Positions 1,111 to 63,151 of a stretch of 64,000 nucleotides of DNA are shown here, in pieces. The notes under the pieces were generated by a model. It was not told the DNA's origin. It saw only the letters and a list, made by a program, of their open reading frames with translations, and ran no database searches. Each line of letters begins with the position of its first letter. Position 1 is the stretch's first letter. Both the position numbers and the translations under genes were made by a program. Source of the stretch: Spinacia oleracea (Eukaryota; Streptophyta; Magnoliopsida; Caryophyllales; Amaranthaceae); NCBI RefSeq assembly GCF_020520425.1, contig NC_079487.1:87115141-87179140 (forward strand), read 5' to 3'.

Positions 1111-2535
1111 TGTTATGTTATGATACATATGATATTACATAAATCATGCGGAAACAACCATTAACCCAGGATTACATATTATTTACACATAATCATATAG
1201 CATAATTTAGATGCATACTCTTTGTTGCGTGCCCTCCCTAGCTGCGCCCGAACCGAACAAGAACAAGTCTTTAGGACTCCAAGTGTCGTCCCTCCGTAGA
1301 TAGTCCACAGCACGTCCGGATCCGCCTTAAGATTGACCAACTAGAATCGCCCTTAAGGTACTAGAATTTTCGGCACTTTTGAGCAAGATGTGTGGCTGAA
1401 TTTTTCTCTCAAAAACTCACTTTGAATACTTTGAAACTCGTTATAAATTGTGAACCCAGGCCACATATTTATAGGGGTATGGAAAGGGAATTGGAATCCT
1501 ATTCAGATACAAATTGATTAAACCTAGAATCCTACAAGAACTCTAATTTAATTAATTTATCAAATAGAATTAGGAATTTAATCATTAACCGAACTCTGCA
1601 CGTTTTAGGAAACGTGCACGAACACAAACACTTACACACGCACACACGGCAGCCACGATGGGCCGCCCATGCGTGCGCACGAGCAGCAGCCCACGCAGCG
1701 AGGCCTGCGCGAGCTGCAAGCCCACGCAGCTCCCGCGCGCGCTGTGCGCGCTGTGCGCGCTGCCACGGCCTGCTGGGCCTGGCCTTGCGCTGGGCCTGGC
1801 GTGGCTGTTTGTGCGGCGCGCTTGGCTTGCTGGGCGATGGCCTGGCTTCGTGCTGGGCCTCGTCCGGCAGGCCTCGTCCGATGCTTATTCGTACGATACG
1901 CTTCCGATTAAATTTCCGATTCCGGAATTCATTTCCGATACGAACAATATTTAACATTTCCGATTCCGGAATTAATTTCCGTTTCGAACAAATATTTAAT
2001 ATTTCCGTTTCCGGAATTATTTTCCGATTCCGGTAATATTTCCGATTCTGACAATATTTCCGTTTCCGGCAATATTTCCGATTCTGGTAATATTTCCATT
2101 TCCGATAATATTTTCCGATACGTACCATGTTTCCGTTTCCGGCAACATCTACGACTTGGATAATATTTATATTTCCGATACGATCCATATTTCCGTTTCC
2201 GGTAATATCATCGTTTCCGGAGTATTCATTTCTTGCCTGTGACGATCTCAGCTCCCACTGAAACCAAGATCCGTCGGTTCCGAATATCCATAGATAGAGT
2301 ATTTAATGCCATTAAATACTTGATCCGTTTACGTACTATTTGTGTGACCCTACGGGTTCAGTCAAGAGTAAGCTGTGGATTAATATCATTAATTCCACTT
2401 GAACTGAAGCGGCCTCTAGCTAGGCATTCAGCTCACTTGATCTCACTGAATTATTAACTTGTTAATTAATACTGAACCGCATTTATTAGACTTAACATAG
2501 AATGCATACTTGGACCAAGGGCATTATTTCCTTCA
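1111..2535 (-). mobile_element. Long terminal repeat (5' LTR) of minus-strand retroelement
   Basis: On the minus strand it begins TGAAGGAAATAATGCCC and ends ATAACA, the TG...CA form of an LTR, about 1.43 kb. A TATA box (TATAAAT, minus strand, + positions 1467-1473) lies where a U3/R boundary is expected. Inside it are a GC-rich block (1610-1885) and a minisatellite (1890-2230). The opening bases and the segment at + 2240-2500 resemble the solo LTRs at 6583-7583 and 62040-63151, so all three belong to one family. It is inserted into the Copia remnant that resumes at 2541; AAGGG at 2536-2540 would be one copy of the target duplication, the partner lying outside the window. Confidence 0.75.
1890..2230. 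repeat. TTTCCGATTCCGG minisatellite inside LTR
   Basis: Repeated short units of the form TTTCCGWTTCCGGWAATA run for about 340 bp in the LTR. On the minus strand they read GGAAACGGAAATATT and so on. The solo LTR near the right edge carries the same motif (about 62690-62865), and 6840-6990 a decayed version. The 218-codon minus-strand open frame across it (1532-2188) is a by-product of the repeat. Confidence 0.8.
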
Positions 2536-2540
2536 AAGGG

Positions 2541-3081
2541 TACCTCAAACGTGTGTCTTGAGTTTGGCAGAGATGTAAACGCGCTTGAAAGCTTTTGTGA
2601 CTCGGATTATGAAGGTGATATGGATGGTCGAAAGTCGACTTCGGGGTATGTGTTTACGTTGGATGGTACGTCGGTAAGTTGGCAATCGTCGCTATAAAAT
2701 GTTATAGTACTTTCAACTACGGAAGTCGATCGATTACCGAGGCATTCAAAGAGGAAATTTGGCTAAATGGTCATGTGAGAAAGATTAGTCCAAGTTCAAA
2801 GTTGATTTGTGTGTTTTTTGATAGTCAACGTGTAATTCACTTGTCGAAAAACGAAAAAAAAGTCTACAAAAAAGCGAAACGCATTGATGTGAAGTACAAT
2901 TGTGCTTGAGACGAGCTAAGAAAAAAGAGCGTGGTCTTGGAGAAGATTGGTACAAAGGAAAATCTGCGGACATGTTGACAAAGCCATTTTCAACTACTAA
3001 GTTCACTTTGTGTGTGGACTTAGTTTGTCTTACTCTATTTTCAAAGTGAGAAACAAGGGGTATATTGGAGGGGGAAAACTT
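2541..3081 (+). pseudogene. Copia polyprotein remnant: end of RT / RNase H domain
   Basis: Translation in shifting + frames gives the end of a Copia polyprotein: LKGTSNVCL-like lead-in (KGTSNVCLEFG at 2541), then CDSDYEGD, RKSTSGYVFTLDG, SVSWQSS, a TAA stop inside the SWQS..QN..LSTTE motif, then FDSQRVIHLSKN, RIDVKY, and after a further frame change ADMLTKPFSTTKF. These are the RNase H landmarks DADYAGD / STSGY / VSWQSKLQ / LSTTEAE / DSQSAIHLAKN / HIDVRYH / ADMLTK of the family. Stops and frameshifts make it dead. The N-terminal parts lie left of the minus-strand LTR that interrupts it, outside the window. A purine-rich run at about 3053-3077 is the likely polypurine tract. Confidence 0.85.
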
Positions 3082-4735
3082 GTTATGTATTACTCAATGT
3101 TGAGGACTGTGATGGATTGAATTCAAGGTGGAGAGTTATTGTAATTGAGGTGAGTTATCCTCTAATGATGGGTTAATAATTGGAGTTATTATTAATTGTG
3201 CAAAGAAAATAAATTGGAGTTTTAAGTTTAAGGAAAATTGACCTTAAATGTTAAAAGAAGAAAGAAAAGGGAAAAGTTGGGCCAAAGAGAAAACAAAGTT
3301 GTAGCTTTGATTTGGGCCCAAATTTACAAGGCCCAGTAGCGGCAAGGAATGAGTAAAAATAGAAGCAACAGACTTGTAAATTTTTGGTTGTACCCCCATC
3401 CAAAATAAACATTAACTATTTCGGAAATGAATATTTATTTCTTTCTTTGGAAATGAGCATTTACTATTTCGGAAATGAAAATATACTTTTTCGGGAATGA
3501 ACATTTATTTATTTATTTGGAAATGGACATTTTTCTACTCATTCGAATATGAACGTTTATCTAATTATTTGGCAATCCTCATTTATTCAACCAATTTATA
3601 AATGAACATTTATCTACTGATTGTGAAATGAGTAGTTACTAATTTTAAAATGAATTTAGTTATTGCATTACTATGTTATTACTTTGAACATATATTTACA
3701 TATGTTGAGCAAATAAAACATGTCAAATAACATATTTTACCAAAAAATTGAACATTTTAGGCATTGCCTATGTAAGATTGCACTTGAATTACAAGATATT
3801 GGTAGAAATCATCCTCTTTATTTTTGTTCCTATATCTTCAATCTTTAATCCTGCTTTTGATGTAGTATCGAGTTCTTATACTTTTGAATGTGTGTATGAA
3901 GTGTGATTTGAACACAATATTTGACTTTCACGGTTTCAATTTCCTCATTGTTGTAGGCTGAAAATTAAAATAGCTAGTAAGTAATTTGATATGATGATCA
4001 CAACTAATTTAAAAAAGAACATTTACTGATTTGAAAATAATGAGCATGCAAAGAAAACAAATAGGTTAAAAAGAAAGAACAAGGGTTTAAAAGATGTTCA
4101 GTAATAGAACAAGAAAGAACAAAGAATACAAAAGGTATTAACAAATAAACAAAAAGTATGAACAATTTCATTATGAACATTAACCAGCTGATTATTATGA
4201 ACAAACAAATAAACAAGAAAGAACAAACAATTCAACAAAAAAGAACAAACAATATAAAAAAGAACATAAAATCTAGAAGAAACAACAAACAATACAACAC
4301 TTATGAACAATTTTATAATAAATTTAAAAAAACAACATGAAAGAACAAACAGTACAACAAGAAAGAACAAACTATACAAAAAGAAAAAACAAACCATACA
4401 GGCGCGCCGTTTTTTTGGTGGGGGGTACAACCAGAGCTGGTTGTACCCGGGTACAACAGTTAGGGGTTACAACAGACTTATTAAGTTATTATGTTGATGC
4501 AAGACCCTGCACGAGTTTGCTTTGTGCTACGTGGCTTATTTTTCTTCATATCTTTAGCTTATTCATTTGTACTATATAAATCCAATTAAACTTATTTTTT
4601 GATTTGTAGTGAGATAAACATAAAACATAAGAGAGTTAGAGCGAGAAAGTTATTCTAAACTCATTCTAACACAATTTCTACTAATAATACCTCTTTATAA
4701 ATTGAAGGGGATATTCTTGTGTGGAATGGTCCACA
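3082..4735 (+). mobile_element. 3' LTR of the Copia remnant, split by a Mutator-like element
   Basis: It starts TGTTATGTATTAC directly after the polypurine run that follows the RNase H remnant. A TATA box (TATATAAA, about 4573-4580) followed by a plausible transcript leader ends near CCACA at 4731-4735. The right boundary is a guess because the 5' LTR is not in the window. The LTR is interrupted at 3376-4470 by a later insertion. Confidence 0.55.
3376..4470. mobile_element. Mutator-like non-autonomous element with 9-bp TSD
   Basis: The ends are GTAAATTTTTGGTTGTACCC and, on the opposite strand, GTAACCCCTAACTGTTGTACCC, i.e. degenerate terminal inverted repeats. Both sides carry the identical 9-bp direct repeat AACAGACTT (3367-3375 and 4471-4479), the size expected for Mutator superfamily insertion. 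The interior has no protein: a tandem array of about 35-bp units around GGAAATGAACATTTAT (3420-3650) and an AGAACAAACAATA-rich stretch (4020-4400). A small palindrome, CAACCAGAGCTGGTTG, lies at about 4429-4444. Confidence 0.7.
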
Positions 4736-4768
4736 ATAATATAGTGACCTAAAGCCAACAATTTACCT

Positions 4769-4871
<103 letters not shown>

Positions 4872-4899
4872 CCTTTATATATAGAAAATCCGGAAAATG

Positions 4900-6582
4900 C
4901 AAACCATTTTCGACCTATTAGTTTATGCTCAACCATTTATAAAATAATTGCAAAAATGATGGTGAATAGACTCAAAGTTGTACTAGGAAAAATAATTCAC
5001 CCTCTTCAAGGGGCGTTCACTCCGTAAAGAATTATTCAAGATAATATTATCTTAGCTCATGAGGTGTTCCATTCTTTCAAAAATAAAGTAGGAAAAGGAG
5101 GATGGATTGCAATCAAGTTAGACATGGAAAAAGCTTACGATCGAATTGAATGAGAATTTCTATACACAATGCTAGATAAGCTAGGTTTTAGCAAAAAATG
5201 GATAAGTTGGGTTCGAGAATGTATTTCTCCCGTCTCGTTTTCAGTCCTCGTTAATGGGTGCCCAACAGATAGATTTTTTTCCTACCAGAGGACTGCGTCA
5301 AGGTGACCCATTGTCTCCATACTTATTTATTCTATGTGCAGAACTTCTTGCAAGATAATTTCATTTCCGCAGTTTTCATAAAGACAAGTTGTTAGGGGTC
5401 TCTTTAGGAAACTCTAGAGTTAAAATTCCATTCCTCACCTTTGCAAATGATACAATGATCTTTGCCAAAGCTACTAAAGAAGCATGTATTATTATTAAAA
5501 ATATTTTAGATAGCTACTGCAGAATGTCAGGGCAACTTGTAAATTTTAACAAATCTGCTTTTCAGTGTACTAAAAATGTGCCTGCGTCAGAAAAAATTAT
5601 TTTCAGAAGTATACTCCAGATGAATGAATCTTCTTCTCTAGGAAAATATTTAAGGTGTCCTATAAAAGACGGGAGAGTTTCCAATTCCACTTTTGCGGAT
5701 ACTGTTCAAAAAACCAAAAATCAGTTAACAAAATGAAAAGCTAACTCTTTATCCCAGGCCGGAAGAACGATTCTTATCCAATCTAACTTTGCATCCAAAG
5801 CAAATTATCAAATGCAAAGCTTCACCTTACCGACCTCCGTAAATAAAAGGCTGGACAAAATTTATAGAAATTTTTTTTGGAACCAAGACCCGCTTGCAAA
5901 ATCACCGAATTTAATAGGGTGGGACAAAATTTGCAAACCAAAGTGCTTAGGAGGGCTTGGTTTCAGAAAAGCGGAAATTAATAATAAGGCCATGCATATG
6001 AAACTGTTACGGCAAATTATCTCAAACCCTTCTAATCAATGGGTGCAATTAGTCACTAAGAAGTATCTTCGAGGGAAAGATTTATTTTCTTATTCCCCAT
6101 CCATAAATTGCTCGTGGCAATGGAGGAACCTTATGAAACTACAACCTTTATTCAAAAAGGGCCTAAGATGGCAAGTAGGATCAGGAAAACAAATTTCCTT
6201 TTGGTTTGATAATTGGGCTTTTTCTAGTCCATTAGTAGAAATGGTCTCTTGCTCTAGCTCTTCCCCTGAACAAACAGTACATGATTACATAACGCATGAT
6301 AAGCAATGGAATATGTCTAAGCTACATAGCGTTCTCCCTCAAAATTTGGTGGAGGAAGTTTGTAAGATTCTTATACCATATAATAATATTGATGATAATT
6401 TGATTTGGAGCCCAGGAGACAGGCAATTTCTCTACTAAATCTACATCTTTACTAGCTCAAGGCTTATCCACGACGGTGGAAAATCGAGTCCCCTATCGCT
6501 GGATTTGGTCGCTCGACATCCCCCCGAAAATCAAAAACTTTCTTTGGAAAATTTGTTTAGATGGTCTCCCTACTAAAGAAAG
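4900..6582 (+). pseudogene. LINE ORF2 reverse transcriptase, first part (broken)
   Basis: RT landmarks run in order: QGAF near 5008, AIKLDMEKAYDRIE (5110-5150), [11 protein letters not shown] (5230-5270), LSPYLF / LCAE, FANDTMIFAKA in place of the FADD catalytic box (about 5440), MSGQLVNFNKSAF, then a C-terminal part with KCLGGLGFRKAEINNKAMHMKLL, the zinc-finger/RVT-like segment and PPKIKNFLWKICLDGLP at 6520-6570. Several in-frame stops (e.g. TGA after DRIE, TGA at about 5734) and frame changes show it is inactive. FAND instead of FADD removes one catalytic aspartate. Confidence 0.9.
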
Positions 6583-9105: not shown

Positions 9106-10145
9106 CTAGGTTGTAGGGATAGATTGAGGACATCTAGTGGTGTTGTTGAGGTTAGTTGCAACCTCCACCATTGTTGGCCTATCGTCTCCTCCTTCTGCCA
9201 CGCACCTGAGTGCAAGATGTATAGACTGCCTTAGCTGGAGGTCCTCAATACTTGTCAATCCGTTTCTAGTAATTGAAGGATCTACAATCTCGTAAATGCA
9301 ATTATTTTTGAAGCCATTCCCTGCCCAGATAATTAATGCACTGTTCTGATCATTTCTTTCTCCTGTCAGATCAGAAAAATAAGGGATCTTTCCTGTTAAG
9401 AGCATAAGAAAAATCGCACCAAAAGAGTACACATCAGAACTCTCTGCTACTTTTCCATCCATCAAATATTCAGGTGCTATATAGCCAAAAGCCCCCTTTA
9501 TAGGACTGACTTGAACAAATATTTCACTTTAGGAATAGAAATAGAAGCACTAAAGTTTGACAGTTTAGCAGTGGTGTTCTGATCCAAGAAAACATATTGA
9601 GGTGCCAAACACCTATGGATGATGGGCCTCGGAAAAGCTGTGTGGAGATTAGAAACAACATAAGATATTTCCCACGCAATCCTTAGTCATTCATTCCACT
9701 GCAATACTTGTTTGTTTTGGTGCTTATCCTTAAAAAGTATTCGGTCTTTAAGAGTTTCGGAAGCCACCCACTCATAAACAATAACAGGAGATCTAGTCTC
9801 CAGGCAACATCCTAGTAGTTTGTGGACATTATTATGTGTAGCCATTTGTGAAGCAACCGCAATCTCACGTAAAAGCCCATATTTGGTGTCCTCATTATCA
9901 CTACTCTGCAGCTTTACCAATACAACTCTCCCCTCCCAAGAGCCTCGGCATAGATAAAAGCAGTTACTAACAAAAATTAGATCATGTTCCACATTCATAT
10001 TGTTGAGCTCATCAACTGAGAAGAATCGGACATGATTGGGTTTACCATGAAACAAGGAAATTCTTTCTTCAAGTACATCTGCTCCATTTCTTATGAAATT
10101 GTTTTCACTTCCTTGGAAAACTTTGTATTTCTTGTTTCTCTGCAT
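9106..10145 (-). pseudogene. ZRK/ZED1-like (RLCK XII-type) pseudokinase gene, broken
   Basis: An intronless kinase-like gene. N-terminus MQRNKKYKVFQGSENNFIRN then VLEERISLFHGKPN and RFFSVDELN is the family signature of ZED1-related kinases, which partner NLRs such as ZAR1 in Arabidopsis (family knowledge). VVLVKLQ keeps the ATP-site lysine; VHKLLGCCLE and VIVYEWV follow. The catalytic HRD is HRC (IIHRCLAPQ) and DFG is NFS, so it was probably a pseudokinase before it broke. Damage: a TGA in place of the Arg codon in WNE(R)LRIAWEIS (+ about 9688-9690), and loss of one base near 9530 (PK.EIFVQV), after which GAFGYIAPEYLMDGKVAESSDVYSFG and the C-lobe continue to the normal stop at 9106. Only these two lesions separate it from an intact frame. 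Family call is strong; the ZRK subfamily call is from memory. Confidence 0.85.
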
Positions 10146-12560: not shown

Positions 12561-12839
12561 GGATAAATTGTATTTTACCATCTAAAAAAATCGAAAAATT
12601 GTTTTTTACCACCTAAAAATTAAAACTTGTATTTTACCGCCTAAAAAAAAAATTAAAACTTGTTTTTTACCACCTAAAATTGAAAAAAATAGATGAAACC
12701 GTTATATGAAGTTTCGTCTTTTTTGCCGTTTTTCAGATGGTAAAAATACAATTTTAATTTTTTTTAGGCGGTAAAATACAAGTTTTAGTTTTTTAGGTGG
12801 TAAAAAAATAAATTTCGATTTTTTAAAAACAATTTGTCC
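12561..12839. mobile_element. Foldback MITE (Mutator-type TSD)
   Basis: Almost entirely two inverted arms: left GGATAAATTGTATTTTACCATC... and right, reversed, GGACAAATTGTTTTTA..., each with ACCACCTAAAA and TTTTACCGCCTAAAA. Flanks TTTTATCTA (12552-12560) and TTTTATTTA (12840-12848) match at 8 of 9 positions. Sub-terminal motifs recur in the larger element at 43991-46237. Confidence 0.7.
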
Positions 12840-24130: not shown

Positions 24131-25259
24131 TTGATTTAGGTGATGTGACTTTTGTCCGATTGGTCACTGACGCCCTAAGGTAATATGCAAATTTCAAATT
24201 AGAATATAGTAAAGGTATTTAATTACAGTAGTAAAAAGAAATTTGAAGACACATGTAAGAGCATCCTTAATAATGAACAAAATAATACAAATTTTTCAAT
24301 AAGACCGTCTGACGCGTCAGACGTGCCTACGTGTCAGGGCGCGGGTCATAACGCGGGTCATGACGCGGGTCAAAAGAACTCGTGGGTTTTAACTTACGGG
24401 TCATATAAATATTTATTTTTTGTCCTATTTCAAAGCCCTAATTCATTTCCCTCTCCCTCAAACTCTCGGCCTCCCTCTCTCTCCTAAATTCCCTGCTTCT
24501 TTCTCTCTCATCAAACCCTAATATCGCGGTGGTGGTGTTGCGCTGCTCGAGGTGGAGGCAAGAGAGGCAGATATCGAGGTTTTGGTTGTCGGCGGCGAGT
24601 GTCGTCCTCCTCCGTCATTGCTTCTCATGTTATTGTTTCGTATCATCACGTCAATGGCGGTGGTGGAGATCTCGGGGGGAGGGGAGAGAGGAGATTGAAA
24701 GGCGCCATTGAAGGATCCGTCGAGCGGCGAAGAAGACCGACAACAACATCATCAGATTCCGTCGATTTTTAGGTTATTGATTTTTCAGATTTTTTGTTTT
24801 TTTTGTTTTTATTTTTTATTTTACAATTTAGATCTTTGATTAATTTTGTTTATTTTCGATTTCCTGACAGGAGGTGGCGGTAGTGGAGGTGCGGCTAGGG
24901 AAGGCGATGAGTTTCTGTGAAATGATAGGGCGGTTGTGGCGAAGTTTCAACGGAATGATAGGGCGACTGTGGTGGTGCGAGTGGGTCAAATAACAAAAGT
25001 CGATTGCGGTGGTAGTAGAGGCGAGCCACGAGTTTGATGCTAGTCCCTGCTGGTGGCTGCGACGCGAACGAACGGAAGCTGCATAAGCCTCGCACCACCA
25101 CAGTCGTTGTTGTTATTTTAATTAGTTTTAGGTGGCGCCGAGTATGGTGGTGCTGAGTATGGTGGTTGTGTGGTGTTGTTGGTGCAGAAACATTGCATCA
25201 CCTCTGGTTCAAGGAGATTATTGATTTAGTTACATATTTGTTGTAATTAGTTAAGAAAA

Positions 25260-27790
25260 AAATTGTTTTAGTTATTCATTGTTTTAGGTTAGTAGTATTT
25301 CATTTTAGTTATTCATTGTTTTAGTTAAGATTTTTATTGTTTTAGTTATATTTTACTTATATTTAGTTAATAAATTAAATGGTTTAGTAATATTTTTTCT
25401 GGATTATTGTTTTAGTTATATATTTATTGTCTTTAGTTAAGAAATAAATCATTTTAGTTATTCGTCACTTTAGTTATAAATCATTTTAGTTATTCGTCAT
25501 TTTAGTTTATATGGTTGTTTTAGTTTTGATAATTTCATTTTAGTTAAAAATTACTTTATTTTAGTTCAGAATAATCCTGTTTTAGTTACATTTTTTAGCT
25601 TTAGTTGAGAATAATGATGTTTAACTTACACATTATTATGTTTTAGTTAAGGTTAATTTGTTTTAGTTTAGAATAATGATGTTTTAGTTAAAAGTTATTT
25701 TGTTTTAGTTAAGAATATTTTTGCTTAACTAATTGGTTCAAATGCTTAACTAATTAGTTCGATTGATTAACTTATTAATTTAAGTGATTAACTAATTAGT
25801 TAATCTATCGGACTAATTAGTTAAGCATTTGAACCAATTAGTTAAGCAATGAAACCAATTAGTTAAGCAATGAAACCAATTAGTTAAGCATTTGAACCAA
25901 TTAGTTAAGCAATCGAACTAATTAGTTAAGCATTTGAACCAATTAGTTAAGCAATGAAACCAATTAGTTAAGCACTGGAATTAATTAGTTAATCAATCGA
26001 ACTAATTAGTTAAGCATTTGAACCAATTAGTTAAGCACTGGAATTAATTAGTTAAGCAATCGAATGAATTAGTTAACCATTTGAACCAATTAGTTAAGCA
26101 ATGAAACCAATTAGTTAAGCATTTGAACCAATTAGTTAAGCAATGAAACCAATTACTTAAGCACTGGAATTAATTAGTTAAGCAATCGAACTAATTAGTT
26201 AAGCAATGAAACCAATTAGTTAAGCACATGAATTAATTAGTTAATCAATCGAATTAATTAGTTAATCATTTGAACCAATTAGTTAATCATTTGAACCAAT
26301 TAGTTAAGTACTTGAATTAATTAGTTAAGCAATCGAACTAATTAGTTAAAGCAATGGAACTAATTAGTTAAGCCTAAAATTCAATTAGTTAATCCCAAAA
26401 TTCAATTAGTTAAGTTTTGGAACCAATTAGTTAAGCAATGAAATCAATTAGTTAAGCATTGTAATTAATTAGTGAAACGTTGAAAATCAATTTGTTAAAC
26501 ATTTGAACCAATTAGTTAAGCAATCGAACTAATTAGTTAAGCATTTGAACCAATTAGTTAAGCACTTGAATTAATTAGTTAATCAATCGAACTAATTAGT
26601 TAAGCATTTGAACCAATTAGTTAAGCACTGGAATTAATTAGTTAATCAATCGAACTAATTAGTTAAGCATTTGAACCAATTAGTTAAGCGATGACACCAA
26701 TTAGTTAAGCACTGGAATTAATTAGTTAATCAATCGAATTAATTAGTTAATCAATGGAACTAATTAGTTAAGCATTTGAACCAATTAGTTAAGCAATGAA
26801 ACCAATTAGTTAAGCACTTGAATTAATTAGTTAAGCAATCGAACTAATTAGTTAAGCAATGAAACCAATCAGTTAAGCAATCGAACTAATTAGTTAAGCA
26901 ATGAAACCAATTAGTTAAGCAATCGAACTAATTAGTTAAGTATTTCAACCAATTAGTTAAGCATTTGAACCAATTTTTCCATTCTGATTGCGTTGATGGA
27001 TGGCTAGTAAGTCACGCCACTTGCCCTGTTTGCAGGTTCAACCTCACAAATTCCGACTTGTGGAAATCGAACGACGACACTGAAGACGACAATGATGAAA
27101 TGAGTAACTTGTCGAGGTCGTTATCGACAGGGCATATGGATAGGTTAAGCAATGAAATCAATTAGTTAAGCAATATAACTAATTAGTTAAGTGTTGAAAT
27201 TCAATTAGTTATGCAATGAAATCAATTAGTTAAGCATTAGAATTAATTAGTTGGGCAATCGAACTAATTAGTTAACTATTTGAACCAATTAGTTAAGCAA
27301 TTAAACTAATTAGTTAAGCACTTGAATTAAAGTTAAGCAATCGAACTAATTAGTTAACCATTTGAACCAATTAGTTAAGTCGGAAATCCAATTAGTTAAG
27401 CAACAGAACCAATTGGTCAAGCAATAGAATGAATTAGTTAAAGCAATGAAACCAAATAATTAAGCCTAAAATTCAATTAGTTAAGTCTTGGAACTAATTA
27501 GTAAAGCATTGGAACCAATTAGTTAAGCAATGAAATCAATTAGTTATGCACTGTAACTAATTAGTTAAGCGTTGAAATTCAATTAGTTAAGCATTTGAAC
27601 CAATTAGTTAAGCAATGAAACCAATTAGTTAAGCATTTGAATTAATTAGTTAGCCAATTGAACTAATTAGTTAAACACTATAACTAATTAGTTAAGCGTT
27701 GACATTCAATTAGTTAAGCATTTGAACCAATTAGTTAAGAATTTGAATTAATTAGTTAGGCAATTGAACTAATTAGTTAAGCAATACATT
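25260..27790. repeat. AATTAGTTAAGCA minisatellite, about 2.5 kb
   Basis: Roughly 100 units of about 20-21 bp of the form AATTAGTTAAGCAATSRAAC, in higher-order alternation (AATCGAACT / ATTTGAACC / AATGAAACC types). From 25260 to 25730 the units are a looser TTTTAGTTA type; at 27800-27930 the same motif appears inverted (TAACTAAAAC). Stops occur in every frame, so it does not encode a repeat protein. Confidence 0.95.
26975..27144 (+). pseudogene. Captured ATL-type RING-H2 finger fragment
   Basis: A 170-bp single-copy island in the middle of the minisatellite, in one open + frame: [20 protein letters not shown], then [35 protein letters not shown]. This is the second half of a RING-H2 domain of ATL-type E3 ubiquitin ligases (consensus FHxxCIDxWLxxHxTCPxCR), plus the following acidic stretch. 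The first Cys pair is missing and the flanks switch abruptly back to repeat units on both sides, so it cannot fold as a complete RING. GC content and codon use differ sharply from the array. Confidence 0.85.
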
Positions 27791-28779
27791 TGATTTAGTA
27801 TAACTCAATCAAATAACTTAAGTGTAAAAAAATATAAATAAAGCGTTTCATTTCATAACTAAATATAACAAAATCATAACTAAAACAATATAATTTTTAA
27901 CTAATTGAATTGATAACTAAATCGAAATTAAAACACCAACCAGATAAAAGAAATTGGGGCTTTGTCCTCTTTATCAACAAAAAAAGCAGGTAAAATAAAA
28001 AAATACAAAGCTAAAAACAAAATCACAGCCAGCTAACACCACAACGCGGCCTCGACAAGCTAACACCACCCCATACTGAAGAAACACCAGCGCTGCTACC
28101 ATAACCGGTGTCGTGAACCAGCCACAACCGCGCAACTTTGCGAGGAGGCCATTAACAACAACATCGACCACCAGTGCAACTTTGCGAGGATGCGAACCGC
28201 CGCCTCTGCTCCCCACGTCTCTCCTCCGTCCTTCGCCACTCGGCCTCCACCGCCTTGATTATTCTGTCGAGATCACCGACTGAAATCTAAAAACAAAACC
28301 GAAAACCTAAAAACAAAATCAAATCCACATCAACTGAAATCTAAAAACAAATTCGAAAACCTAAAAACCTAAAAACCTCAAGGTGCTAGGAGGGACAACG
28401 AAGAACTGTAAGGAGGAGCTCCTCGGAAATTGTCGGCATGGTAATGGTCGTCTCCGGCGAGAGAGAAGAGCGAAGAGAGGAGAGAGAGGATCGCATCAGC
28501 AGGAGAGAGGGGAGAGACGAGGGGAGGAGATGAGCGACGAGAGGGGAGAGAGAGCAGAAACGAGCAGGAGAGAGAAATTAGAAGGGTTTTATTGTGCGCG
28601 TGAACGCACGCGCGCGTGGGCGAATGGGCCGTCTGACAGGCGCGTGGCCGTCAGACGGTCTGACACAAAACTTACTGACAAAATAATGTCCATGTGGATG
28701 AAGTTTTAATTTTGAAAAATGAACAAAAAGTTTTCGCTAAACTAATGTTTGAAGGAACGATTAAAATGACATGCTCTTA

Positions 28780-32800: not shown

Positions 32801-35800
32801 TCATTATGACTTGGCAAGTGAAATGCCACCGTGTCATGTCATGCGCACACAATTAGTATCAATGGTTAAACTCATGACCTCTCATCTATAACGTAAAGCT
32901 TTAACCATCTCCACAATAATGCAAAAAATGACTCCAAAGTAATGAAAAAAGACAAAAGGCATTCTTATAAATGTTAAACTTTAACACCCAAATAAATCAT
33001 TATCATTACCCCATTGCCTCAAAGAGGCTCCCGCAAAAAGCAGGGTAACTTTAACACCCAAACAAATATTAGAAAAAAAATCTATTATTAAAAAGAATCA
33101 CTTAATGTTTCTTTATAAACTCATATCATAGGTAAAGTTGTTGTTTTTAAATTAAAAAAAAAAGTAGTTGTTGCACTGTTTTTTTTAGCTAACCAATTGT
33201 CTGGTTTTCTGGTTTTCCCAAAATAATATTGCTTTTTTGGAATTCAATATATAATACGAAGTAATTGATATTTTAAGAAATTTCGTATGTTTATAAGTGA
33301 ATTAGAAAAAATGAAGTTGTATACGTAGTACAAATCAAGTAAACTACTTGAAATTTTAGTTAACGGAAATTTCATGAAATGCCCTCGAGTTTTGCCATAA
33401 TTCACCAAACGCCCATCAAGTTTCAATAATTCATAAAATACCCCTCACAATTCGTACAAATACCCAACATACTCTTACTAATAACAGACCGTTAGTCTGC
33501 CGTTAGCCAAGTTTCCAATTCACCCAAATGCCCCTATTCTGAAACTTATTTCACCAAATGCCCACATATATTAGAGTACCTACCAAATTTTGTTATTGTG
33601 GTAGGAAATTTGTCATTCGAAGCTCTGATACAACACTCAATCCACAAAGGTTGTACTAAAAGTGTGATCCTTGAAACAATCTGAGATAGTGCAAGGGAGT
33701 AGTTGAGCAAGAAAACAAGGGGCAACAACACAAAGGACAATGCGGGGGAAGCTTAGACGAAGGAGAAAGTATTGAAAACAGGCGAAACAGTAAGATGCAA
33801 GAAGAATTGAAGCAAATGAAGAAGCAGCTAAAACAACAACAAAAAGTAGTTAAAATTGTAATACAAATGGGGATATTGATGTTTGTAATTTTACTGTTTG
33901 TAATCATGAAGTAAACACAAGTAATGAGAAACAAATTCACATTTCATAAATAATTGATGTTGCATAATCTGCACAAAATACCAAACTGGGAAGCATTTCT
34001 GTTTTTAGCTTCACTTACAAAACATCTTTGCACCAACTACATTTAATGTTGTTTTCTAGTCAATGAATATGTGCAAGATCAAAACAGATGTTCAAAAAAC
34101 TAGCCAAAAAGCATTAGCAGCTATCCAGAAGAGCTTGTGGAACAATTCTCCACTTCAACCTCCATTCTTACCACAATAACAAAATTTGTCAGGTACCCTA
34201 ATATATGTGGACTCATTGGGTGTGGAAGATGATTGTGAAAGAAAACTCATGACACAAATCTTATGAAATTAGCAAAGTAAAGTAAAATAACATCTAAAAT
34301 ACAAGAACCATTTAGCAAAGGGGTTTTTATAGCCAACTATGACCAAGAACCACTTTTCAAACAAAAAAACTAGCCGTCGGAACATCAGAATAGCTATATT
34401 TAAGTCTGGGGCATTTGGTGAAATAAGTTTCAGAATAGGGGCATTTGGGTGAATTGGAAACTTGGCTAACGGCGGACCAACAGCCCGTTATTAGTAAGGG
34501 TATGTTGGATATTTGTACGAATTGTGAGGGGTATTTTATGAATTATTGAAACTTGATGGGCGTTTGGTGAATTATGGCAAAACTCGAGGGCATTTCATGA
34601 AATTTCCGTTTAGTTAAATTATATATAACTCCTACTAAAAGTCATATGACATTTACAAAAGAAACTTGAAACTAAGAATTTTAGTTAATTAATTATAATT
34701 TTAGTTAATCAATATTTATTCTTACGTATTCCGTTTTGTGTGTTCCATTTTAATCTTTACGTTTGGATATTTTCTTTTATATTGTAAAAAATAAATGCCC
34801 CTAATATTCTGTCAAAAATCGTTTCAAATGATTATTTTAATCAGTCAACTTCACTGTGGCATTAAATCTCTCACACTTTCACATTGAGACAATAAATTTC
34901 CCTCACGTTCCTAATGACAGATTTTTGACAAAAGTGAAAACATTATTAATAAACGTAATTAAGTGGTTATTAAAAAGAAGGAATCTTTACCCATAGTAAA
35001 TAAAAAAAGAAGGAATCTTTACCCACATTAAATACGGAGTAGTTGTTAAATCACGTGCATAATACCATACATAAAGATTAAAAAGGAACGAATGGAGTAT
35101 CAATTATGCTCAACTTATTTTAAATAAAAAATTAATATCAACATATTTGTAACGACCTTGGGCATCACAGGCCACTAACTAGTTACTCCCTCTGTAACTT
35201 TCTATGAGTCGCAATTACTACTTCCGATTATATTTTTTAGGGGTCACAATTCCATTTTTGGTAACTTTTACACCCACTCCCCGATTGTTTATTATTTTTA
35301 CTTTCATATGGGCCCACTTAAATCATAAATAATTCTATTTTTGGTTACTATTACACCCACTTTTTTTTTGTATTGTCAACTACCCCACTTGCATCATTAT
35401 TATATCAAATTCAACTATGCTTTCTTAATACTCTTTCCACCATTTCCTTACACCAGCTCACCTCCTCTAGAAAAAGGAATTTACAATAATTAGGTACGTA
35501 GTAAGTCATACCAACCATTTCCAAAGCATAAACCACACGGGGCTTAATATCTATATACTACCCTGAAGTTAATGCTTTGAGATCTAGAGATAAATGACAG
35601 AATTGCAATAGAACACAAAAGAGAGTGGTTCACGGATAAATAATGTAACAAGAACGCTAGATAAAACACCAAAATAATTATCCATGCATAACCAACAATA
35701 GCAATGTTATATATAGATTACTCAGATACCATACCAGACGTTCAAGACGGTTCCACCTTATTGATCCATCATTACAAATAAGCAGTTCCCTCAGAATTTT

Positions 35801-41800: not shown

Positions 41801-44800
41801 GACAGGCAAGTCAAAAACTTTAAGGATAACATCTCGAGTGTAATTTATTTTTGTGTGCCAATTATGGTGTAAAAACTCGCCCGAGTTAACTCGTATCGCC
41901 CGAGTTAACAAGGTTTTGGAGGCTGGTGATATGAGATATCCCGAGTTGTAAAGGTGTTTTTTAAAACGGCGAGACCTTGGCCGGTTAAACCGATCCGAAC
42001 GAATTTTGTCCGCATTAAACGTTATAAACCTCACATCTACTCGGTTTCCAGCCGAATACCCCATGTTTTCGACAAAAAGAAAGGGAAAAAGGAAAGAAAT
42101 GGAGAAACTCCATTGAAATAGAGTAGAGAACTCCATTTTCAATTCTAAAACAAGAGAGGAGGAAGAAGGTAGACAAAGGAATTCATTTTAATTATGTCAC
42201 GTGTACGGTTTAGGGGAGGGGGACTAGGGTAGGTAGTGAATGGGGCTGACATGGGGCTTCTTTTTCAAATTTCAAATTCCTACTCGACAACCGCGACACG
42301 GTACGCGACTAACGCATAATTTCCGTTACCGAGACTCCGCGACCGATCCCGCGACTGTGACCGATACCGCATTTTTTATCTATGGTACCAAATGGAAAAG
42401 TCAAAAGTGCAAAAGTACTATTAAGAATTTCACAATTATTAGAAGAAAATCAGCAAACCTTGTACGAAAGGGGAACCAATATCATCTTATCTACACAGCC
42501 AGAAAGGACAAGAGCCATTACAACTTACAAGTGCTACACCGGGCTCCAACTAATCCCAGCAGCCTCATAGGAAGAAACTAAACTACCTTACCGTATTTTT
42601 TTAATACTTCTACATGACTACTACTACGAAATTCTTGACGCTCTTTCATTCTTCGAGTTCTGACACGTTTTCTTCTTATACAACTTCCGTTTTTGTGAAA
42701 ATGTTCTCTTCTAGTCTTTCAGAAACAACCTCACTACAAGATTTGACATGTTAGGGCACCATGGGTAATGCTGGATCCTGCAGCAGCTAAATCTACGCAC
42801 TGTTGGTACTGTAATTCTGCTGTAGCATGTCTATATTACAGAGTACAGACTGCCACCATCACCAACACAAAAAAATCAGCTTAGATATTATTTGTATGCT
42901 CCAAACTGTCCCTCAGAACTTTGCTGTTTCCAGCATTAACATTCCAGTATTCATAATTAGACATCCGTAATTCAAATCCTAGACATTATATAACCAGTTT
43001 AAAGTTTAAGCCCACAAGGAGAATTGATGGTTCATACCACTTGAATGAGGCCAACACGATAGTGTCGTGGAATATTTCCCATCATTCCGAAGTCGAAATA
43101 GGCCAGAGATCCATCATCTGTAGCAACCAGATTTCCAGGATGAGGGTCAGCATGGAAAAATCCCACCTCAAGCAATTGTCTCAAAGAGCAGTACAGTCCC
43201 TAAGCCGAAGCAAGAAGCATTCAGAATTGGAATTAATAATGAAACAATAAATATGGGGAGGCTTTTCAAAAGGAAAATAAACACCATTTAAACTTCCCCC
43301 TGTTATGCAAAATATCAATCGACATGTAACTTTATTGTAGATAATCATCCAAAATATGTCGCTTTTTCAATCATTAGTTCAAGTTCAAGTTTCATCAATC
43401 CCATTCCTTTTTCATTTGATTCGTGAAACTACTAATATATAAGAAGCTATCAGCAGCCCATGAGTCATCCAGCAGAAATCAGTGGTAAAAAAAGAGTACA
43501 CCAATCATAAGCAAAGCAGAAATGGCTTCGGAATCTTGATCCTGGTTCCATTTTTGTTGGTAGGATCATTGTTAGTTTTTGAGGCATTTTAGTATAATGA
43601 AACTTCACAATAAAGTTCCATTTTTGTTGGTAAGATCATTGTTAGTTTTTGAGTGCATTTTAGCATAATGAAACTTCACCATTTACATCAGAAGGCATCA
43701 GGAAACTTGATTTTACAATCACTGAAAAGGGTGGTTACAAGGAAACAGCAAAATATTACTAAAAGGTACTAAGAGGTACTCCCTCCGTCCCGTTTTGTTT
43801 GCCCCATAGTCAATTCACTTTATTAAGAAGTGGGTGTAAATTGTGCACATGGATTGATAAAGTGGTCCCATGAGGAGAGAGATAGAGGGAGAACAAGTGG
43901 GAAAACTTTTGGTATGGAGAAATCTCAAAGGGACACACCAAAGAGGAAATTGGGGAAACGAAAAGGGACGGATGGAGTAACAATGTAATGGATTTTTTTA
44001 CTTTTAACACCTAAAATATCGTTTTTGCTTTCTAAAACCTTAGCTAAAATTTATTTTATTTTACCACCTTAAAGTTTAAAAAAAATTGGGTTTTAACACC
44101 GGTTATTGGATTCCGTCCAAAAATCCATTAGTGCGCCCACATATTTTTTTACCCTTCCTCTTTTTCACGAATTTCCTTTCTATTTTCAACCTCCATTTTT
44201 CCTCTATTGTTTTCCGTTAATTCTTAACAACCTTTTCTACCTTTGTTATTATCCCTTGTTCAGCTGAGCCTTCAATTTCAACCCAATAAAAATCCCCAAT
44301 TTCACCTCAAATCCAATTCCCATATACTGCAATTGTATCTTGCTCAGCTAACCCTCAACTTCAACCCAATAAAAATCCCCAATTTCAATAGTCATTGTAA
44401 CTGTGCTCCATGTCGACGATGATGAAATCTTAGCCAGCAAGGCCGGAAATTTCAGCGAGGGTGGGAGAGAAAGAGAAGAGAAAGATACCGTAGAGAGTTT
44501 CACCATTTCTGAGGCGTGATTTAAGAGTTTCAAGTTTAGCCGTGTCCCTGGTGGTGGTGGAGGTGGCGGAAGGCGGGTTTTCGGATTAGGCTTTTATTTC
44601 TAAGGGAAGCAATTGAGGAGGAGAAGTTGGAGACGGTGTTGAAGGTGGTGGAGTTGGAGGAGAGAGAGTGGAATACATGTGTTTTTGCTGAAATTTTAAT
44701 CGATTGATTTCTGGGTTATTTATGTTAATTGAAACTTCAATTCCATAAATTTTGTTCTAAATTATTGATTGTTGAAGCCTGGCGTTTTGTAACATTGTAA

Positions 44801-47800
44801 ATTGTTTATTTTGGTGAGAATTACTCTTAAAGTGTTATAAGAACATTAATTTTGTGGCATGGTTCATCAGTTAGCTCCTTCTCAATTAAGTTTGAGAGAC
44901 ATGAAGAATTAGTTCATGTTTGTCTTTTGTTTTGACGTGGACATACTCGTGTCCTCGAGATAAATTTGTTTGAACAGGGGTTAGTATGGAATTGAACATT
45001 TTAAGAGTAATTTCTCACAAAAACAAACAACTTACAATGTTACCATAATTTTTTGTTCCCTCACTAATGGAATTTCAGACAGAAACCGTAAACCGGTGTC
45101 AAAAGCCATTTTTCTAATTTTTAGGTGGTAAAATAAAATCAAATTAACTAAGGGTTTGTTCGGTATCATTTTGATTTTTGAGTTATATGTTTTCAAAAAC
45201 TGATTTTAGCTTTTAGACTTGTGTTTTTTCAAACTAAAACAAAACTGTGTTGAAAATTGAGACTAATAAGTTATTACTACATAAGTGATCTAGTCTCACG
45301 AATCTCACGAATCTACCATCTTCTATGTCACCTAACCTTGAACCTCACCATATGGGCAAGTCCTTTAACGCCACATGTACATTTCTTTTCTTATTTATTT
45401 ACTTGGAGACATGTGGAAAGTTGGAATATGCAAAATAATAAATCAATAAATAAACAAAATAAATAAATAAATAAAGAAGAAAGACATGAAAACCAGAGTA
45501 TATTAAACACCCCTATTGTTATCTTCTGCAAAATTAAGTAGATTAAGCACCAACCCGTCAACATGGTTTTCTGGTCAAAATCTATAACTGAAAGAGAGTG
45601 TTTTCCCTTCTGCTCTAATATCGGGTGTAAGTTATTGGCGACAATAAAGACCTTCAATTTCCGCCATTAATTGCGCTGGAATTATGTCATGAAAAGGGGA
45701 AGTTGGGGGAACGGATGAAACTGACATCGGAAATTTGTATTTACCGATTTTGTTGGAGTTAGTTGGTCATTTTAAATTAGGAGAGAGAATGAAATTAATG
45801 GATTCTAATAGCAATAGGGGTAGCATCAATCGACCAACGGCAATGAACGTCGGAGACTTCGATGATCGTGCAAGAATGGTAGAAGGAAGGCACGATGGAG
45901 GCAGAATTTAACAGAAACAATTTATTGAGAGAGTATGAAAGAAGCACAATAATGGTTCCTGTAGAGAACAATAGATGACGCCATGACGGTATTCTGTAAT
46001 TGCGCGGATTATGAAAATGAAAAAAAAAAAAATCAAATCGATGAAAACCACTTCAGTGGTTTGAGGTTTTCCGCTGCAGTTTTGTGAAAAGTGGAGAAAA
46101 GTTGTTTTATAAATCAGTTTCACACAAGTTTTTGTTTATTTTCGTTTTAAAAAACAGGAAACAAAATTAATGCCGAACACAACATAAGGTGTTAAAAAAA
46201 AGCGGGTTTTTTTAAGATGTTGAAAGTCAAAAAATCCTAATGTATTATCATGTCCGGAAAAAAAAAGGAAACTCTAAAGAATGTAGTAAAAAAATTCAAT
46301 CTTCAGATTTGGCCTATACCTGGTCAACAAGGTCCTTGCGCTTCAATTGGAGCTTTGCTATTGCTTCCTCATTTGTAAGCTTAATTCCATTTATCCATTC
46401 CAATGTCAGCACTGCTTTACGAGTATACTTCCAATATATTTTTGGAACTCTAATAAGGCCTTGACCTCTGTTTGTCTCATAATTCCCAGTCGTAGCATGG
46501 AATTTATTTCCAAGACTATCATCACCTTTCAATTAAATCAAGACTTAACTCAGAAAAACTGGTAGAGAAGCTGCCTATTTTAAAGGCCCAAACATGTTTA
46601 TAGGAAGGGCGGAAAAACGTGTTAACTTCTTGTAAAGGAAATATACTGAAGCAAGCAAATGGAGATTTCAAAGTTTGCAGAAAACTACAGAGATTGAACC
46701 CAACTAAATCATATCAATACACGCGATATTTAAACAACGCAGATTTTTCATGTTCCAAACTGAGGATGATGAGCAGCAAGTCAGTAAAAATTTATCTACC
46801 AGGAACATATACATATACATATACAGACCGCTTCAGAACAACAGAGACAAGTTACAAAAATAATGCGAAAATTATGGTCGGCCAGCAATCCATCACTGTC
46901 TGAGCAAGATTTCTAGATCAATAACAGGCTAACAGCATATACGATCTTCAAGGAAGGAATTGAGACATGTACTAAAGTGCAAAAAGTCACATATAGAGTT
47001 AGATGGGCTGGTCTAAAAATTCTCAGTTCTCTTGTGTCTGCATGCCAGGGCAGCCCCCTTTTCTGTAGTCATTTCATTTGGAAGGCTAAATCCTAAAGCT
47101 TCTTTTAAGACCAGGGATTTCCCATGAATACCATCCGTAGGGATTAATACAGATGACACACTCCATAAGTGAAGGTCATTGTTGACTATTTCACTGGATA
47201 TACAGTGTGCTTTGCCAACCCAATGGTGGATCTTGCTTACATATCTTTCTTCATTATCAAGTGTCATAGATCTCTTCGTCAATTAGTCAATTTGGCCATC
47301 TCAACGACCACAGCTTCATTTTCTCTGTTCTCTCTTTTTTCTCTATTTTTTAATAGTCTCTCTCCCCATGGCCAATGGATGGGATTACTTTAAGTGTGCT
47401 CCAAAGAAACAATGAAAAGACGGGCTAATCCTACAACTAAAACCAGCAAATTTGCGTACCCAAGCCAGCAGAGGCATATAGATCTATAACGGACAAACAG
47501 ACATTAGCGCAAATCTTTATCTAAAAGAGTTGACATGAGAGTGAAGCACTTGAAGAACAAAAACTTGCAGCACTCGGAACCACATCTATTATTTAGGTGT
47601 GAAAATCAAAAGAAAGAACAAACTTCAGTTTCACTTCTTGAAGTAGATAAACAAGTATGATTAGTTAGATGTAAATACAAGTACATCTGGTAGGCTACAC
47701 CACCACATTGAACATTCAACCACAACAAAATTTGGTTCGTTGACGTACCCCTTCTCTCTTATATTTAGTGTACCCACCACAACAACCTCAGGCCTCAGCC

Positions 47801-60299: not shown

Positions 60300-62039
60300 A
60301 AAACAAATATATCATGAGCCCCTCTCCTCGAGGGTAACACCTTAGTAATAACTAATAAGAATTGAGAGAAGTTACGGGTTGTTACAAGTATCAACATACA
60401 TCATAGAACTAACTAAATACTAACCACAATATGTTGCTCTATTTTCTCTACGGTAGACATGTTTGAGTTCCCGAAATGACGGAGAAGACACTTGATGCCG
60501 TTGACTATGGTTTGAAGCTTCAAGGAGTAGACCAAACATTGTCAGCAATGTTAACGGGGAGCTAATTCTGCCCTTCAATGTAGAATTGCTTGATGTTGAG
60601 ACGAATAGCTTGTTGCATGCCTTATGAAAGAGTGGACACTTCTGCCATAAAATCTTGAGAAGTACTGACAGGCTAAAGTCGTATCACATAATAAAAAATA
60701 AACCTAAGTTCCACTAACTAATTAGTAGTTAGAGAAGTTATGATCAAATCCACATGGAAATAACTTTTTTTACTACTATCAATCAAACGAAACTAGATCA
60801 AAGGTAACCATCTTGTGGGTTGTAAGTACAAACTAAGAACGAAAATAATCAAAGGAATAAATAATGAAAGGCCTAAGGCAAAGGAACACTATGAACATAG
60901 ATCGGAGTCAAAACGATAATCAAATAACAAATAACATGGAAATATTATTAAGGACAAACATGTTCTCTCGAATCTATGTCACCCTTAAGACTCCAAACTA
61001 GCAAGCACTCGTGATTCACTAGTTTAGTTGCACTTATTATTGCAAGTCTAACTATATGGTTTCTACCTCTTGGCATAACCAAAAGTTCACAAAACTAATT
61101 GATCAAACCTGATCAATACTTAATTGAAAAGAAATGAAGACAAACAATAGGACAATAGAAAAACTATAGGGGTAGTGTCTCTCCAAAGTCCTATGATCAA
61201 GGTTGTTTATTTGGTCTGACCTTAATCATGTGGATCCGCACTCACTAAAAGAGAAAAAAAAAATTCCTTTCACAACTTCATTAATCATTATGCATTTCAT
61301 AAACGTTTTCAAATCATTCCTTTGGGCCTAGTCCAACTACTAAGCCCTAAATTTTTCTCGATCAAGCTTCGGATAAGCCCAATAAAACCAAAATCGAGTT
61401 TATTCCATCCATAAGCTCTTGATTAGACAATGAATCGATAACTATTCAAATAAGTTTTCCATCCATATACCATAAGCTCAATTCCGATTTGTAACAAAAA
61501 GGTTATGAGGTCACTATTTGGGTCATATCTTGAGTTATACAAATGATAACACGATGGTTCCATGGGTTAGAAAATAGGAATATGTAGCTTACCAACAATC
61601 TATCATAGCCCAAAAATAAGCTATGGTGAGCGAGATGTGACTAATCAATCCGCTGCTTTTGCAGATTTTCAAAATCTTCTAAATTATCTCGAATCAAAGT
61701 ACGTTAGTGGACTGCGCCAACACCTAGCGCATACCGCTGGCCTTGGAAGCTCGCGCCAGCCCCAGCATAATCCGCTGGTCTTGACGGTTGTTCCATTTCT
61801 TAACCCAATTCTATTGTTTTTCCTATAAATACAATAGAAATTAAGGTCTTTTACACGACTAAATTATACCCTAAAGTGACCCTTGTCAACTCCGAAAAAT
61901 TCATTTTCATTTACACACTAAAAGTTGCATTCACCATTTCGCAATTCATTCATCGAACTTAATCACAATTCGTTCCTTGCGTGATTATGCCTAATGAAGA
62001 CTCGTAATTTCCTAAAACCCAAACAAACTTGGTAATAAT
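60300..62039 (+). mobile_element. Degenerate LTR-retrotransposon-like sequence
   Basis: A long non-coding AT-rich stretch ending in an LTR-like promoter: TATAAATA at 61824-61831 followed by a transcript-leader-like sequence, and upstream a GC-rich GCGCCAGC-type segment (61710-61780). It is cut at 62040 by the solo LTR and seems to resume at 63152. No coding domain identified, so the element type is not known. Confidence 0.35.
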
Positions 62040-63151
62040 TGAAGGATATACGTTCTTGCTCCAAATATGCATTTATGTCTTTATACGAAGTCTAATAAAT
62101 GTTGTTCTGATTAATTAACAAGTAAATTATTCAGTGAGATCAAGTGAATCAGAATTCTTAGATGGAGGCTGCTTCAGATCAAGTGGAATTCATTTTAAAT
62201 ACACATCTTACTCCTGACTGAACCCGTCGGGTCATACAAATACTCCCTCCGTATTTATTTAAGAGATACACTTGGCCGGGCACGGGTATTAAGAAAAAGA
62301 ATTGAATGAAATAAAATAATAAAGCAAGTGGGGTTGGGTAGATATTTTAATAAGTAAACAAGTGGGGACTATGTCATTTTGGTGGGGTGGGAGGTGGTGT
62401 GGTTTTATGAAATTTTTTGTTTAATAGGATGGTGGGTCATAGGGTAAATTAGATGTATTATTTAATTAGATTGTGGGGTTGATAAGTTACTAAAAATGGC
62501 AAGTGTATCTCTTAAATAAATACGGCCGGAAATGGCAAGTATATCCCTTAAATAAATACGGAGGGAGTAGTATGTAATGGATCAAGTATTTAGGTGAATA
62601 TATTATATTTAGTAAATACTCTAATAGATGGTTATATTCGGAAATGATGGATGTTGGTTTCAGTGGGAGCTAAACAAATCATCAAAAGGAAAAATCGTAG
62701 TGGAGACATTGCTGAAAACGGAAATATGGTTCGAATAAGAAATATTATCGGAAATAGAAATATTACCGGAAATAGAAATATTGTCAAAATGGAAATATTA
62801 CAGGAAACAGATATATTGCCGGAAACGGAAATGTTGTTGGAAATGAAAATATTGTCGGAATCGAAAGTAAGTGTTTGCGCAGGAGTCCAGCACGGTCAGC
62901 CAGCTACTATCGAGCCACGATGGGCACTAGTGTGTTGTGTCTGGAACAGGCGCGGGCAGCCAGCCTTTGGCGCATTGCCTTCACCTGTCTTGAGGCTGAA
63001 CATTTCTGCATCCAATAAAAAAACTCTAACTTCGTCGTTTTTAATCGTCTTTGCAGCTACGGTTAGCCTTTTAATTACATAATTAGTGCGACTAATCGTG
63101 CGCTTTAATTGTGTATTTAAGCGACTAACTAATTTTTTGTTGTAGTGGGCA
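62040..63151 (+). mobile_element. Solo LTR with 5-bp TSD, carrying a Stowaway MITE
   Basis: Starts TGAAGGATATACG and ends TTGTAGTGGGCA, flanked by ATAAT (62035-62039, 63152-63156). It shares ACGAAGTCTAATAAATG, CAGTGAGATCAAGTGAAT, CTGACTGAACCC and the GGAAATATT minisatellite with the minus-strand LTR at 1111-2535. Without the MITE it is about 787 bp, shorter than its relatives because the GC-rich core is reduced. Confidence 0.7.
62243..62567. mobile_element. Stowaway-like MITE nested in the solo LTR
   Basis: Ends CTCCCTCCGTATTTATTTAAG, and reversed the same 21-bp start, TA flanks (62241-62242, 62568-62569), 325 bp. A second inner copy of the end motif (AAATAAATACGG) sits at about 62513-62526, so the right arm is duplicated. 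Confidence 0.9.

Follow-up and report, generated by a model that had tools for sequence, protein, structure and literature searches.

The genome of spinach (Spinacia oleracea) raises, at one locus of contig NC_079487.1 (C1 in what follows), the question of how a piece of a host gene came to lie inside a tandem repeat that itself lies inside a mobile element. The window, that is the whole 64,000-nucleotide stretch analysed here (C1:87115141-87179140, in a genome of 894,210,420 bases), contains an element whose 21-bp satellite is interrupted by an island of a RING-H2 gene of the ATL type. An earlier note on this DNA, made from the letters alone, had proposed gene capture inside a satellite inside a possible transposon, and the proposal is now supported by 9-bp target duplications, three copies of the island and a related intact ATL-type gene. 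We consider it likely that the element is a non-autonomous foldback Mutator-like element (MULE) with a captured fragment, i.e. a foldback Pack-MULE, and that the fragment entered an already existing array by template switching during repair.

Borders of the element and its target

The borders were called from other copies, which were found by searching the genome with the island and with both element ends.

24287-28678, plus strand: whole element, 4392 bp, probably foldback Mutator-like and non-autonomous; likeness to other copies starts and stops here, with a 9-bp duplication on both sides
24278-24286: left target-site duplication CAAAATAAT, same as 28679-28687
28679-28687: right target-site duplication CAAAATAAT, same as 24278-24286
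24256-24277: left portion of an older short element (TAAGAGCAT end) that served as target; joined flanks match two other places
28688-28779: right portion of the same target, ending ATGCTCTTA; joined flanks match two other places

The left end reads ACAAATTTTTCAATAAGACCGTCTGACG and the right end, on the other strand and read inward, TCAGTAAGTTTTGTGTCAGACCGTCTGACG; in short form, the ends are ACAAATTTTT...AGACCGTCTGA. The earlier note had set the borders at 24256 and 28779, taking the mirror-image TAAGAGCAT motifs as element arms, and had allowed that other copies might show different borders. They do, and together with the perfect duplication they move the ends to 24287 and 28678, so that the former borders had to be given up. 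When the element is removed with one duplication, a sequence of 123 bp remains, to which two further sites on C2 are similar (74% and 71%), the similarity running through the insertion point. The TAAGAGCAT mirror ends lie outside the element and, because of these matches, are assigned to the older short element that was the insertion target.

A family with Mutator-like target duplications

The genome search gave at least 40 scored matches to each element end. These counts are lower bounds: 40 places were scored among 110 candidates for one end, and 41 rows came from 40 scored among 147 candidates for the other. The duplication was assayed in the 11 elements with both ends in the retrieved stretch (leaving out L029, L030, L032, L033, L036, L050 and L052), with offsets of up to 4 bases tried on the left and 8 on the right; the right-end coordinates of L006, L028, L037, L038, L039 and L051 were extended by 1 to 17 bases past the BLAST ends. 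It was perfect in 9 of the 11 copies and held at 8 of 9 bases in L035, while L006, truncated at its right end, has none. Two of the three island copies, in the window and at L005, carry different 9-bp duplications. A 9-bp target-site duplication speaks for the Mutator-like superfamily, and the host ATL-type fragment between its ends, found at three loci, makes it a Pack-MULE. Helitrons leave no target duplication, and the element is thus not one of them.

Reading frames that overlap 24287-28678 do not exceed 114 codons (Pfam was applied to the island frame only), and Rfam at its gathering threshold gave no match in the window. The third island copy, L006 6410-10000 (C1:17642.9-17646.5 kb), is truncated on the right; a match to the transposase domain PF10551 begins about 2.5 kb beyond it and, in our impression, belongs to a different, FAR1-like element.

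The satellite, its turning point and the arms

Tandem Repeats Finder (TRF) reported a 21-bp minisatellite of 94.9 copies at 25790-27785, island counted in, which agrees with the roughly 100 units noticed earlier.

25721-25801, minus strand: reverse-orientation 21-bp units, about 4 (against 62 in L050, 45 in L051 and 94 in L052)
25786-25805: perfect palindrome GATTAACTAATTAGTTAATC, site of the flip in unit orientation, read from the sequence; hairpin z = -13.9 for 25700-25900
25802-26976, plus strand: forward 21-bp array upstream of the island, from TRF and unit orientation
27144-27785, plus strand: forward 21-bp array downstream of the island, from TRF and collinearity with L028

The array is present in all 15 family elements in which unit orientation was compared (arms were compared in 13; L032, L033 and L036 were not among them), and it is a module of the family. 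Units run first in reverse and then in forward orientation in 9 of the 15, with reverse/forward counts of 4/87 in the window, 62/55 in L050 and 45/21 in L051. This change of orientation within the element allows the strand to pair with itself; indeed, around the axis of the window copy it folds far better than shuffled sequences. Judged from the order of the units, the layout is that of foldback elements with unequal, changeable arms.

The satellite is interrupted in other members as well. On the minus strand of L029, about 1964-4957 from the end of the stretch, 3 kb without detected array runs lie within it. The satellite of L030 (minus strand, 3771-3890 from locus base 9875) holds a private 120-bp piece that matches none of the 14 other elements and might be a second, independent insertion into an array. 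No further gap of 55 bp or more in the arrays of the 15 elements looked gene-derived, as judged by eye with no protein search.

Two arms flank the array.

24287-25720, plus strand: left arm outside the 21-bp array (sub-terminal AGACCGTCTGACG, GC-rich, CT-rich, then the TTTTAGTTA layer), 0.7-1.0% different from L005, L006, L050 and L051
27786-28678, plus strand: right arm outside the array; 17 differences in 872 against L028; outer 700 bp common to L005, L006 and L028, and to L038 at 87%

The mirror-image arms of the earlier note were confirmed for the inner layers, where 25240-25722 scored 171.9 against the reverse complement of 27786-27935, a score reached by none of 200 shuffles. For the outer GC-rich and CT-rich layers they were not: apart from AGACCGTCTGACG, which both arms share, that likeness is mostly composition and does not exceed composition-matched shuffles. 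Inversion between the arms is seen in the inner layers and, in the nine members mentioned above, in the array. At the site matching window position 27889, L005 has about 256 bp of extra right-arm DNA beside the array, absent from the window copy and from L006.

The captured gene fragment

26977-27143, plus strand: ATL-type (RING-H2) gene fragment, 167 bp, apparently captured; bases shared by array and gene are TTT at 26974-26976 and GTT at 27144-27146

The single coding-like island that had been noticed in the array is a RING-finger sequence (Pfam zf-RING_2, E 2.7e-6 for its translation), and the repeat does resume sharply on both sides. It was thought to lie in the middle; it sits away from the fold centre, in the right-arm array. 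The island DNA matches four places in the genome, namely three element copies at three C1 loci (window, L005 and L006) and one gene on C4, and its junctions are the same in the three copies apart from point changes. The C4 gene, the kind of full-length relative that the earlier note had suggested looking for, is intact and encodes a RING-H2 protein of 301 amino acids; Pfam supplies the RING domain, and we take the gene to be an ATL from its layout. The island differs from it at 10 of 172 aligned positions, in addition to in-frame gaps of 9 and 21 bp. Because the open frame around the island has 77 codons, with the first half of the RING domain missing, ligase function is not expected and the fragment is presumably not a working gene. 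Any effect that it has would more likely be exerted through small RNAs.

An island-free sister copy

L028, also on C1, has no island and is collinear with the window on both sides of the island site. On the left (window 26309-26967), 50-bp segments are 96-100% identical (88% in a single case), and the alignment shifts twice by one 21-bp unit. On the right, from 27149, identity is 82-100%, mostly 96-100%, and about 128 bp of array near 27530-27690 are missing in L028. Where the window has the 167-bp island, L028 has 368 bp of 21-bp array. Moreover, the unit variant GTATTTCAACC that adjoins the left junction is found in the three island copies and L028 but is absent from the 13 other family loci checked. 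At each switch point three bases are common to array and gene, TTT on the left and GTT on the right; for random array-gene pairing, the chance of at least three shared bases is 0.06 per junction. All 12 island-free members compared, L028 and 11 others, have plain arrays. Because of these plain arrays, and because L028 shares its array with the window on both sides, we read the array as the older component and the fragment as having probably replaced part of it.

Left and right halves from two lineages

The left 900 bp of the window copy are common to L050 and L051 (98% over 100% of the length), and the right 700 bp of those two loci are not shared with the window (0% and 10% covered). Conversely, the right 700 bp of the window copy match L028 at 96% over 97% and L038 at 87%, and the left 900 bp of L028 and L038 are covered to 23% and 0%.

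26284-26535, plus strand: crossover interval, where the window copy is in line with L050 (left lineage) as well as with L028 (right lineage), from 84-bp segments starting at 26284-26452

Collinearity with L050 holds up to the 84-bp segment starting at 26452, and collinearity with L028 from about the segment starting at 26284. As a control, random array pieces of a distant member averaged 0.81 and 0.79, and single pieces reached 0.98-0.99; likewise, a few window pieces to the left of the crossover match L028 at 0.98-1.00, out of line. Since single array pieces can match by chance, collinearity is what counts for the crossover call. On this basis the window copy is a mosaic with an L050-like left half and an L028-like right half, the arms having been exchanged inside the satellite. 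We had considered that the island might lie exactly at the seam; the mapping rejects this, as the crossover is about 440-690 bp upstream of it.

How the fragment may have entered the array

The sequence of events that we favour would start with an element carrying the L028 array, which would suffer a break or a stalled fork in the hairpin-prone array of its right arm. The 368 bp of array would be lost, and repair synthesis would copy 167 bp of an ATL-type gene, the template switching at the three shared bases on each side. The changed element, which would also have been joined through the satellite to an L050-type left half, would transpose, to be found now at three places. A MULE transposase supplied in trans would move it and leave the 9-bp duplications, and it is because of these duplications that we infer such an enzyme.

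Several observations weigh against this scenario. L028 occupies a locus of its own: it represents a sister copy and does not show an island-bearing locus as it was before capture. In the right arm it differs from the island copies by 1.6-1.9%, while the island copies differ among themselves by 1.1-1.6%. As these distances are nearly equal, they do not settle the order of events by themselves. A simple model underlies the low joint chance of three shared bases at both junctions, and at the left junction one T of the gene is missing. The reverse-then-forward layout is departed from by 6 of the 15 members: L052 has reverse units only (94), a central reverse run is lacking in L028, L029 and L038, L039 is forward and then briefly reverse, and L030 is of mixed orientation. 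In the outer arms, the likeness of the GC-rich and then CT-rich layers was reached by 0 of 200 whole-sequence shuffles, and by 23 and 78 of 200 shuffles that keep local composition, so that a genuine long inverted repeat is inseparable there from composition. No transposase or autonomous partner could be tied to the ends when 150 scored PF10551 matches, among 1960 candidates, were compared with 80 end positions (40 right and 40 left, one of the 41 left-end rows being dropped). A single one of the 150, that beside L006, lies within 15 kb of them. Finally, the C4 gene differs from the island at 10 of 172 positions, plus the gaps, against at most about 3.4 differences expected since the split from L028 (Poisson P = 0.003); a rate of 7e-9 per site per year was used for ages. 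If the capture postdates that split, this excess makes the C4 gene a relative of the donor and unlikely to be the direct donor. No closer one is among the 130 protein matches listed (131 of 211 candidates scored), where the best match besides the C4 gene and the three island copies is 52% identical. An allele other than the one seen here, or a relative that has since been lost, was probably the direct donor.

The alternative that survives best, although we hold it to be unlikely, is that two neighbouring copies flanked an ATL-type gene and moved as one large element, which deletions then trimmed to array, ATL fragment and array. Such tandem insertion and re-mobilisation has been proposed for plant Pack-TYPE elements (PMC8903248, PMC13317346), and deletion junctions, too, can have shared bases. 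The 10 kb around the C4 gene, however, match the element in the island only and show no similarity to its ends, though the direct donor was probably a different sequence. The array also resumes 368 bp downstream, in line with L028, whereas a composite could re-enter it anywhere, even with units duplicated; these points separate the two explanations only weakly.

A function that has kept the island in place, with small RNAs from the element transcript silencing the ATL-type gene, is improbable. In its favour, the strand is able to form a hairpin, captured sequences in maize are described as small-RNA reservoirs in a 2026 review (PMC13317346), and, before the first gap, the island differs from the C4 gene by four synonymous and three amino-acid changes, both gaps being in frame. 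However, the island lies in one arm only and so is not itself in the duplex, and the synonymous excess rests on seven changes, for which an unknown donor gene is a simpler source.

The earlier note had suggested that the array grew around an acquired fragment, i.e. that repeats were amplified on either side of a fragment that was there before them. The sharp borders and the tandem context are all that speaks for this, and we give it almost no weight. It is contradicted by L028, whose array is shared on both sides and fills the island site with 368 bp, and by the same array in the 11 other island-free members, some with unrelated arms, unless L028 lost its island and regained its array, for which nothing speaks. 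An assembly artefact, against which the note had also warned, is hardly credible: arrays are hard to assemble, but three loci, which differ in their flanks and have substitutions of their own, show the same junctions. In addition, the spinach Monoe-Viroflay assembly, presumably the one used here, was built from PacBio fragments of about 20 kb on average (PMC8668906).

Template switching during repair of an inverted array thus remains our preferred explanation. A bolder idea, which we put forward tentatively and think less probable than its opposite, is that the inverted satellite works as a gene-shuffling machine: hairpins would provoke breaks, repair through the 21-bp repeats would reassort arms, and microhomology would stitch in unlinked gene pieces, allowing capture without insertion beside the donor.

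Other repeats in the window

Window positions 33352-33607 and 34165-34620 form an inverted repeat with 212-bp arms that are 95% alike and an inner 58 bp at 86%, with outer ends close to AACGGAAATTTCATGAAATG. This pair probably represents another terminal-inverted-repeat element, unrelated to the first, and its flanks show no clear target duplication. Arrays of the TTTCCGATTCCGG type lie near both window ends in opposite orientation (1953-2305 and 62613-62870, 69-77% alike), and the DNA beside them (2337-2536 and 62039-62242) is likewise inverted, at 80%. A further inverted pair (44034-44133 and 45062-45157, 78%) has the common motif TTTTACCACCT and resembles the tandem repeats at 12568-12824.

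Comparison with known systems

The capture of unlinked gene pieces by plant DNA transposons is still an open question. For plant MULEs, the mechanism was described in 2012 as 'yet to be understood' (PMC3310237), and a 2026 review allows for a yet undiscovered one (PMC13317346). Here, a single genome holds three copies of the fragment, an island-free sister with the replaced array and an intact relative of the donor, so that the two switch points are resolved at the single-base level. Whole-arm exchange via the shared satellite would add a route by which foldback elements diversify.

Foldback MULEs with repeat arms and Pack-MULEs are already known (PMC3169594, PMC4079207, PMC8277862). In the open literature searched, outside which most subscription papers lie, we came across neither a description of the spinach family nor one of a plant foldback MULE whose satellite arm contains a gene fragment. 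FARE of Arabidopsis, a plant foldback element classed with MULEs, can be likened to the spinach element by description only (PMC3169594, PMC4486113). Tetris of Drosophila virilis is also a non-autonomous foldback element with variable tandem repeats inside its arms, assigned to the Mutator superfamily by 8-10-bp duplications and with no partner found; it differs by its 220-bp units, and no captured gene is mentioned in the consulted parts of its description (PMC4079207). The Mutator/Foldback family Tm1 of root-knot nematodes resembles the spinach family in its 9-bp duplications, composite arms, variable numbers of short tandem motifs, asymmetric terminal bases outside the inverted repeat and a carried motif that is possibly host-derived. 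In contrast to the spinach family, to which no transposase is tied, one Tm1 copy encodes a transposase, and its motif is about 14 bp instead of 21 bp (PMC3169594).

The nearest published parallel that we have seen is Ssk-FB4, a foldback Pack-MULE of Drosophila melanogaster (PMC8277862). Like the spinach element, it has long repetitive arms, 9-10-bp duplications, a captured distant host gene and several copies with different duplications. The order of break, copying and switch that we propose is close to the fork-switching model put forward for it, and of the 281 animal cases in that paper, 190 show microhomology at one breakpoint or more. Ssk-FB4 took up a nearly whole gene, whereas the spinach element took 167 bp, and into the satellite itself. 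Moreover, Ssk-FB4 shows 2 bp of microhomology at one breakpoint and a new 45-bp insertion at the other, while the spinach element has shared bases at both junctions and an island-free sister that reveals the replaced 368 bp (PMC8277862).

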